Position numbers and translations under genes: made by a program
In this document: in pieces, positions 10,248-23,846 of the stretch
Position numbering within the stretch: the stretch's first letter is position 1
Layout: each line of letters opens with the position of its first letter
Notes under the pieces: model-generated
Told to the model about the DNA's origin: nothing
The model's input: only the letters and a program-made list of their open reading frames with translations
Database searches by the model: none
From: Tubiluchus corallicola
Lineage: Eukaryota; Priapulida; Priapulimorpha; Priapulimorphida; Tubiluchidae
Length of the DNA: 64,000 nucleotides
Assembly (NCBI GenBank): GCA_030141605.1
Contig: JAQGDQ010000011.1
Coordinates: forward strand, 368,066-432,065
Direction of reading: 5' to 3'

Positions 10248-13200
10248 ATGGATTCGGATCCAAAGAACTATGTAGGTTCTGACAAACATGTATACATGTG
10301 GTGGTAGTGTATTCATAATCTCCATAATTTACTGTTTATGGTAGGTTAAATTCTGAAAGTCTGGAAATGTAGTCATTGGATTCATTGCTGTTTGCTTAAT
10401 TAACTTTTACAGAGAATACAATCTCAGACGAAGTCATCTTCTGAATCATCCAATAGCTCTTCGGATTCAGAATCCAGCTCATCATCCGTGGAGTCTGAAG
10501 ATAAGACTTCCAAGCAACGAAAGTCGTCTGATTCGCCAGCATCTTCTACATCTAAACGAGCGAGAATTGGAAATGGTAGCTGTAGCAATTTGCCTTACAC
10601 TTTCTACATTGAAATTTATTATTTGTAGTAGGTGGCACCATTTTGCTTTGTACTTGTAGCATGTAAACTGACTGTTAAGTTTTAGCAGATTTGTTGGCCT
10701 AGCTAAATGTATTCACAATTTGTAGTTTTAAGGATATCCTGCGAACAGCTCAAATATTAAGGTTATAATGTATTGAGAAACTATACTACTCATATGTAGG
10801 CATAACGGATGAATGAGTAATTCTTGAACTTGCATTATATGTAATCGTTTCATTGTTTATAATAACAACAATGCAAGTCTGTAGTCTCGTTTCTGATTAT
10901 AGACAGAAAACAGCAAAATCATTTTTATTGTAGGTAGCCCACGAAGGTCACTCAGAGGTCGCCATCTTCCTTTGTCATTTGACCCTGACCCAGTGTGCAG
11001 CTTTTGTCTACGAACATCTGATGAAAACAAGGAAGGGAAACCGGAGGAGCTCATATCCTGCTCTCGTTGTGGCAACAGCGGTATAAATTGTGGCTCTTAT
11101 GTGCAGTACATTTGAGTATTTCTATTTGCCATCTTTTGTTTTAGTTGTGTATTGTTCATTTTGCTTGTTGATGGGTGATTGTTGTGTTATTTTTCTGATG
11201 GCATAATTTTTGAAACCAGAGAGAGTTTCTCTTTTTGTCAATCACTGAGTTGTTTAATATGGGTTCAAGCAAGTCTTTGAGCTGTGAGGCATTCTGTACT
11301 GCTGGTACTTTTTAAATGCAGTCAGCAGTTTGCAGCATTAGAGGAAACTTTATTTTTCTCATGACTTATTATTATTAGACTTGTAAGGGTTCTTCTCGTC
11401 GGATCTTCAGGTCACCAAAAGATGTTTTTCTTTTTTTTACGAAAATGGCAAGTATTTTGATGTTGTTTTCAAAATCCACAAATCCATTTTAAAATCCAGT
11501 TACTGAATGCTCCAGCCACTTTAAGATGCAAGCTGTTCTAATCTAATCTGGTTGGTACAGAATTACCTCATGATGATGCATCTTATGATATATTTCCTGG
11601 CCTGTTAATAAATCCATCAATGGTTTGCAGTTTAATTTTTGGGTTGAACTCACGTTATTATCATTGTACTCATTATTACATACCAAATTTGCTGTAGTAT
11701 TTAGTAACTGTTAGTTTACTTTTGTATCTGACTTGTTTCAGGTCACCCATCCTGCTTTCGCTTTTCGGAACACATGACGGATCGAATTCGTGCTTATAGG
11801 TGGCTCTGTTCTGAGTGCAAAACGTGCGAAGTGTGCGACACATCAAAAAATGAGGTATTGCATATACAATGATTGTTATTGTGAGTAGATGCATTGACAT
11901 TTATAAGCTTTGATTGGCAAGTAACTACCTAGTGTAGCTATCTTTATTCAGCTCTTGTGAAATTATTAATTAATAGTTTAATTTGTGAAAAAAGTTAAAT
12001 CATTGATAGACTAACGTTTTGTCTAAGTTTACATAGCTTATGATGGCATGCATGATATTAATTTTTTTATGTTAACGTACTGGCAAGTGTTTGTCTTTAT
12101 TTAATGGCATTTTTGTTTAGTTTTTAGGATAACGTATTTTAATGTGTTTATCTTTTGGTTGCAGAGACAATTATTGTTGTGTGATGAGTGTGACCGTGGG
12201 TATCATATCTATTGTCTAGAGCCAAAGATGAAGAAAATGCCAGAAAGTAAGTTTAAGCTTAAAAAATTATTTGGTTAGGGTAATCCGTCTGACCGTAATT
12301 TTTTGCCACCGAGTGTAAAAATTTGATTGATATTGCAACGCAAAAATTCGACAATATAAAACATACATACAAGACAAGATTACAACTCTTTAATACTGTC
12401 GTTGCTGTCCTTCTGACAGAAGTTAGTTCAATTCAAATACGTTTTTATTTTAACGTACATTCAATTAGGTAGAAGTGAGCAAAATTGTAATTAAGTTAAA
12501 TGGAATTCTCGGATAATTTGGGTTACACCTAGGTCTGGCAAGTCTATGCTAGTTGTTCATGAGAATTTAGAGTGTGTTATGTGGTGTAGTGGCTATTTGT
12601 TTGCTAAGTATTGCTATTGCGCAGTGATACTAATTAGCAATAGGGGTGGGACGAAGCTTACATTTCCGAAACCAAATCTCAGATTTTTGTAGTTTCTAAA
12701 ACCGAACCAAATCTAAATCCTTAATTCACTTTTAATTTTCATTATTAAATGAATCTGGATCTTGTAACTTAACACCAATTAGGTTTTTATCTTAGGATCA
12801 GTGTAGTGTTAGCTGCAATGGATTTTTTGTTGATACGTGTGTGTGTATGTATATATATATATATATATGTGTGTATGTATACAACATGATCTTGCTTAAT
12901 GGCCTTGCTAAATTCAGTAAAGCTTCTTAGTTCAGATTTAATTTTGCCTATTTATTACAATCTAGAAAATAATGCTATTACTGTGCAAAATTTACATGGT
13001 ACTATGTACAAAGAATTCAGATACTTCTGCACGTTCTTATTTGGAACTAAATTAATAGCATTTAGAAAGTAAAAATAAACTAAACTCGGTGTGTGCTAAA
13101 TATCGTTCTGTTTAAAATTGCAATAACTGAAATCTCGTGCATAAGTTGTGTCACTGTTGAAAATGTTGACGTTTAATTTGTGGGCTGCATAACTTTTACA

Positions 13201-23846: not shown

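Follow-up and report, generated by a model that had tools for sequence, protein, structure and literature searches.

Location and structure of the gene

The window, which is the whole stretch of DNA analysed here (64,000 nucleotides), corresponds to C2110:368066-432065 in the 343.5 Mb assembly of Tubiluchus corallicola and contains no N. A gene of the KAT7 (HBO1/Chameau) family lies on its forward strand, and the encoded protein carries two PHD fingers ahead of a C2HC finger and a MYST domain (Table 1). The exons from 10413 to 23846 join into a single open frame of 712 codons, or 717 when the guessed first exon is included. All 16 donors are GT and all 16 acceptors are AG, counting the intron after the guessed exon. 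Phases agree at every junction of the joined frame and there are no internal stops; among 2000 random joins of the same piece lengths, drawn from the first 30 kb of the window, none was stop-free. The earlier note on this DNA had placed the gene at 10934..23846. These limits proved right, and exon 2 and possibly exon 1 are now added upstream. The guessed exon reads MAKRR and is set beside MPRRK, the start of human KAT7.

The neighbouring genes are listed in Table 1 under the names that we presume for them. The region 32248-40560 contains two open frames of exceptional length (740 and 1647 aa), and the gene there has few introns for that reason. The ADMP-like ligand close to the end of the window points to a bilaterian. 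A COX1 match is absent from the assembly, and an exon-wise search for cellulose synthase, a gene that marks tunicates, was also empty, which leaves a tunicate origin unsupported. ARAGORN and Rfam scans of the window gave zero matches.

Table 1. Features of the window and related loci of the same genome (window positions unless a contig is named)
Feature	Position	Strand	Basis or remark
PKNOX-like gene, presumably	2270-4230	-
Exon 1, possible first coding exon (MAKRR)	8232..8246	+	ATG and phase-0 GT donor; pattern-only guess
Exon 2, basic, Ser-rich N-terminus	10413..10575	+	Open frame, AG/GT; phase-1 end
Exon 3, PHD1 first half (CSFC...CSRCGNSG)	10934..11080	+	Phase-1 donor between CGNSG and HPSC
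Exon 4, PHD1 second half and PHD2 start	11742..11854	+
Exon 5, PHD2 middle	12165..12246	+
Exon 6, end of PHD2 (last two ligands), basic/Ser-rich linker, C2HC start (first two ligands)	13813..14112	+
Exon 7, C2HC finger second half (zf-C2HC aa 264-292)	14771..14853	+	Pfam PF01530
Exon 8, linker	15664..15747	+
Exon 9, linker	16498..16581	+
Exon 10, linker with block alike in human KAT7	17187..17393	+	Alignment to human KAT7
Exon 11, zf-MYST	18094..18276	+	Pfam PF17772, 83.3 bits
Exon 12, MYST domain	18698..18787	+
Exon 13, MYST domain, contains Lys534	19741..19881	+
Exon 14, MYST acetyl-CoA motif	21111..21204	+
Exon 15, MYST domain, contains Glu610	21749..21895	+
Exon 16, C-terminal part of MYST	23063..23169	+
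Exon 17, C-terminus and stop codon	23733..23846	+
CHCHD1-like gene, presumably	26100-29060	-
PRPF8-like gene, presumably	32248-40560
Non-LTR-type reverse transcriptase remnant, presumably	41692-42636		Motifs
METTL14-like gene, presumably	50970-52176	+
Long (GA)n repeat	54317-54752		Several frames open
BMP/ADMP-like TGF-beta ligand gene, presumably	62572-63976	+
KAT6 C2HC finger exons, between DPF and MYST	C1821 681513-681578; next near 681.06 kb	-	Loci L012, L056
BRPF-type gene	C1882 about 269-270 kb		Named by resemblance
BRPF-type gene	C919 about 187-189 kb		Named by resemblance

Domain content

Four Pfam families score above cut-off in the translation: MOZ_SAS (284.3 bits), zf-MYST (83.3 bits), PHD (62.9 bits, in two stretches) and zf-C2HC (PF01530; 47.6 bits against a cut-off of 32.3 bits). 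The zinc ligands of PHD1 (C81, C84, C102, C105, H110, C113, C131, C134) and of PHD2 (C137, C140, C152, C155, H160, C163, C178, C181) are complete in the translation, 16/16 in all. The window KAT7 thus has the two tandem C4HC3 fingers that readers with a double PHD finger (DPF) require. The C2HC finger is of the CPTPGC type and is identical to that of human KAT7 at 17/28 positions. Exon 6 encodes aa 174-274 and carries C178 and C181 of PHD2 together with C265 and C270 of the C2HC finger. Two complete C4HC3 fingers, a KAT7-type C2HC finger and an exon reaching from the last ligands of PHD2 to the first of the C2HC finger had all been described in the earlier note, and each is borne out by the translation and, for the fingers, by Pfam. 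The DPF, the C2HC finger and the MYST domain are probably encoded in one transcript, as deduced from the joined frame. The PHD-free state described for human KAT7 does not extend to the window KAT7 with its two PHD fingers, and the presence of PHD fingers is an architecture difference inside a family that is defined by orthology.

Orthology of the acetyltransferase

The MYST domain of the window gene is identical to that of human KAT7 at 214/273 positions (78.4%), to KAT6A at 166/271 (61.3%), to KAT8 at 163/271 and to KAT5 at 146/271. A PDB search matched 102 sequences; among the best 60, human KAT7 led with 512.9 bits, followed by KAT6A with 386.1 bits. Human KAT7 and KAT6A differ in 106 columns; there the window agrees with KAT7 in 62 and with KAT6A in 14, and in the other 30 its letter matches neither. 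When columns unique to one of six references are considered, the window shares 24/51 of those unique to KAT7 and 4/62 of those unique to KAT6A. The MYST tree, which took in KAT5, KAT8 and KAT6 (minus its C-terminal part) of the same genome as well as yeast Sas3, joins the window with human KAT7 in a clade with support 97.6/98. Trees that place the window inside KAT6 were rejected (AU p 0.0097 and 0.00016). A MYST domain closer to KAT7 than to KAT6 had been proposed, with a placement within KAT6 named as the result that would speak against it; identity and tree both uphold the proposal.

Outside the MYST domain, the C2HC finger and a linker block align with human KAT7. The likely catalytic residues are also aligned, Glu610 with human KAT7 Glu508, the catalytic glutamate, and Lys534 with Lys432, the acetylated lysine. 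A tblastn search with one query, the winged helix (NEMM) of the genome's own KAT6, gave no match upstream of the gene (best E 3.4) in a target made of 8 kb upstream of the window and its first 25 kb. By its sequence, the window gene is the KAT7 orthologue, and it is the sole one found in the genome. A prokaryote genome-contig collection gave only two weak matches (41% and 32% identity), and relatives of the window KAT7 were absent from a viral contig collection.

The double PHD finger

Over the whole DPF, the window is equally close to KAT6A and DPF2 (57/105 each, or 58/105 each in the alignment made without the KAT6 and d4 of the genome). Identity to the genome's own KAT6 is 51/105 and to its own d4 52/97, the last exon of d4 not having been found. 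The two fingers lean in different directions: PHD1 is nearer to KAT6A (38/59, against 32/59 for DPF2), and PHD2 is nearer to DPF2 (26/46, against 20/46 for KAT6A). The label "KAT6-type", which the earlier note had given to the pair, thus fits PHD1 but not PHD2, and overall there is a tie.

In the DPF tree the window stands weakly beside d4 (69/64), with KAT6-side and basal placements unrejected. The AU test rejects recent copying of the DPF from the d4 of this genome (p 0.015), though the SH test does not (0.0645). For recent copying from its KAT6, the AU test gives p 0.085, which is unfavourable but no rejection.

Introns 1 and 3 of the DPF have the same place and phase in the KAT7, KAT6 and d4 genes of this genome; the first of these positions is the donor of exon 3, whose place all three share. 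Intron 2 is placed as in d4 and is offset by one residue in KAT6. In d4 genes, those of non-bilaterians included, the donor that follows the first PHD1 half is described as conserved (PMC11678306). Exons 3-5 (10934-12246) together make 342 nt and are bounded by phase-1 introns at both ends, a symmetric 1-1 cassette. The cassette could be lost, gained or skipped, since the frame is kept when it is left out. Skipping of exons 3-5 would yield an in-frame KAT7 without a DPF.

KAT6 and other MYST genes of the genome

A genome search with MOZ_SAS gave 14 exon matches on four contigs, with best-scoring assignments to KAT5 (C147), KAT8 (C545), KAT6A (C1821) and the window (C2110). The gene on C1821 encodes a winged helix (SAMD1_WH, 87.5 bits), a linker-histone domain (47.0 bits), a DPF and a MYST domain, followed downstream by long acidic and Q-rich frames. 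The stretch at the edge of the examined C1821 piece is presumably KAT6A-like. A separate KAT6 with its own DPF, the search for which had been proposed as a check, is thus present, and since it has its own DPF, that of the window was not simply moved from KAT6.

The KAT6 of Tubiluchus corallicola also appears to have a C2HC finger between DPF and MYST. Hand-joining its two exons to each other and, in phase, to the exon before them yields TCTTPRCDGTGNVNRKSTHHRTLYACPKS; the spacing is C-x4-C-x4-N-x7-H-x5-C, and Asn takes the place of the first His. The joined piece scores 32.9 bits against the Pfam cut-off of 32.3, and the donor that precedes the hand-joined exons, GTCTGC, is weak. An exon-wise search of the whole genome with zf-C2HC gave 27 matches at E up to 1. 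Those above cut-off are only the eight on C1809, in a cluster that looks MyT1-like. The window exon scores 30.1 bits in this search and the unspliced first exon of the KAT6 finger 24.2 bits. The remaining 17 matches score 19.3 to 25.6 bits, always in a short frame (62-68 aa) and largely over one common segment of the profile; they are spread over C1662, C1585, C146, C811, C183, C942 and other contigs and look like a repeated element. Since two of these 17 (25.6 and 24.5 bits) outscore that KAT6 exon in its unspliced form, the KAT6 finger has to be argued from the joined sequence and its position. The finger is identical to that of the window at 12/28 positions and its intron lies elsewhere; being divergent and differently interrupted, it is no recent copy of the KAT7 finger. 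The human KAT6A linker is not known to have a C2HC finger. Such a finger is unlisted for KAT6 in the available part of a review of KAT6 and KAT7 (PMC9454415).

Histone reading and partner subunits

An EPL1 search of the genome gave 5 exon matches on three contigs, which we attribute to two BRPF-type genes and one of EPC type. Both BRPF-type genes have long exons and encode an N-terminal C2H2-like finger, an EPC motif and a PHD-knuckle-PHD module. A JADE1 query matched two loci, on C2054 and C1790, with 63-68% identity over parts; we take both to be JADE-like. With BRPF-type and JADE-like genes in the same genome, the PHD-bearing partners have apparently not been replaced, and the window KAT7 would be expected to belong to BRPF/JADE complexes. 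KAT7 complexes contain ING4/5 and MEAF6 besides BRPF or JADE. PMC5557939 describes KAT7 as directed by the PHD-bearing partners ING, BRPF and JADE.

PMC7800603 lists the MOZ/MORF residues that contact acylated H3K14 and the free N-terminus of H3. At these 17 sites the window is identical to KAT6A in 15, as is KAT6B; DPF2 and DPF3 are identical in 14 each and PHF10 in 12. The 15/17 conserved contacts suggest in-cis reading of H3 acylation by the window KAT7. The acyl pocket has two changes, L242F and I260S, which could shift the acyl preference. Acyl binding may be altered, given that these two pocket positions differ and that the residues of contact between PHD1 and PHD2 are kept at only 2/4.

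H3K14 acetylation is predominantly the work of HBO1 (KAT7), as stated in PMC7800603, and an enzyme with the DPF-bearing KAT7 plan could for this reason bind its own product. The MYST domain, inside BRPF or JADE complexes, would acetylate H3 (K14) or H4, and the DPF on the same polypeptide would bind H3 tails that are acylated at K14 and unmethylated at R2/K4. The enzyme would be held on chromatin already marked, and spreading to adjacent nucleosomes would be favoured. In mammals, such a read-write loop is assembled from KAT6 and partner subunits. The window KAT7 is of interest as a naturally occurring form of the main writer of H3K14 acetylation that may bind its own mark.

Comparison with known proteins

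The window protein shares with KAT7/HBO1/Chameau the MYST domain (214/273 to human), the C2HC finger, the Ser-rich N-terminus and the linker block; the sequence comparison was made with human KAT7, and Chameau is included by family name only. It differs in its added DPF from the human protein, which, as described in PMC9454415, consists only of a zinc finger, a Ser-rich region and MYST. With KAT6A/KAT6B (MOZ/MORF) it shares the order of DPF and MYST, and its PHD1 is closest to that of KAT6A; unlike them, it has a KAT7-type MYST domain and a C2HC finger, lacks an upstream winged-helix match and ends soon after MYST. DPF1-3 (d4/BAF45) and PHF10 have a double PHD finger as well, with PHD2 of the window closest to that of DPF2, and the d4 gene of the same genome has the DPF intron positions of the window KAT7; these proteins are, however, remodeller subunits without MYST (PMC7800603). 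In most fungi Sas3 combines PHD and MYST in a single protein by published description (PMC11022558); the yeast Sas3 of the MYST tree has no PHD, and the PHD-bearing form is taken here from that description alone. In mammals the DPF is found in six proteins, MOZ, MORF, DPF1-3 and PHF10, according to PMC7800603 and PMC8538644. Among the literature matches listed, no title or abstract beginning reports a PHD-bearing KAT7; a KAT7 with its own DPF may be already present, unremarked, in public annotations.

Origin of the architecture

The DPF-C2HC-MYST plan appears to be common to both paralogues in this genome, and because both appear to have it, it is best read as ancestral. On balance, the window KAT7 probably kept an old plan inherited from an ancestor that it shares with KAT6. 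In the fuller reading, to which we give a probability of roughly 57%, the KAT6/KAT7 ancestor was itself a DPF-C2HC-MYST protein, both reader and writer of H3K14 acylation in cis, with reciprocal losses in vertebrates and both parts kept here. This reading suggests that vertebrate KAT7 lost the DPF and that vertebrate KAT6 lost the C2HC finger. Whether the architecture was ancestral or a lineage-specific fusion had been left open in the earlier note; the apparent C2HC finger of the genome's KAT6 tips the choice towards the former, short of proof. A DPF-bearing KAT7 beside an apparently C2HC-bearing KAT6 makes the parts shared before the split directly testable.

The DPF introns, similar in site and phase across KAT7, KAT6 and d4, are evidence for ancestry, and the differing C2HC introns of KAT7 and KAT6 argue against a recent swap of that finger. 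In most fungi, Saccharomycetes and Schizosaccharomycetes excepted, Sas3 is reported to have PHD plus MYST (PMC11022558). This would fit an origin of PHD-MYST before the animal/fungal split; the fungal PHD may be a single finger. One animal genome and this published fungal statement are the whole basis of the ancestral reading. Against it, the best DPF tree leans weakly to d4 where simple inheritance predicts KAT6, and the C2HC finger of KAT6 has a marginal score and hand-joined exons.

A lineage-specific gain, in which the KAT7 of an ancestor acquired a DPF cassette between phase-1 introns by shuffling from d4 or KAT6, is possible but somewhat doubtful. The symmetric 342-nt cassette, whose removal keeps the frame, is what such a shuffle would use, yet its phase symmetry suits loss equally. 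The weak grouping with d4 in the DPF tree and the human KAT7 without PHD (PMC9454415) also speak for a gain. A gain does not account for the C2HC finger of the genome's KAT6. Any gain was probably old, since AU rejects recent copying from the d4 of this genome and recent copying from its KAT6 is disfavoured. The function of the DPF-bearing KAT7 would be unchanged from that under the ancestral reading. Annelids have separate kat6 and kat7 genes, as given in PMC12153100.

Two adjacent genes or a read-through, with a DPF protein gene immediately 5' of an ordinary KAT7, are very improbable. This arrangement is incompatible with exon 6, in which PHD2 ends and the C2HC finger begins within one frame, and phase is kept at every junction without an intervening stop.

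There is next to no likelihood that the window gene is a divergent KAT6 minus its N- and C-terminal parts, for although the DPF would suit this, the MYST tree and AU tests rule it out and a KAT6 with winged helix, DPF and KAT6-type MYST lies on another contig.
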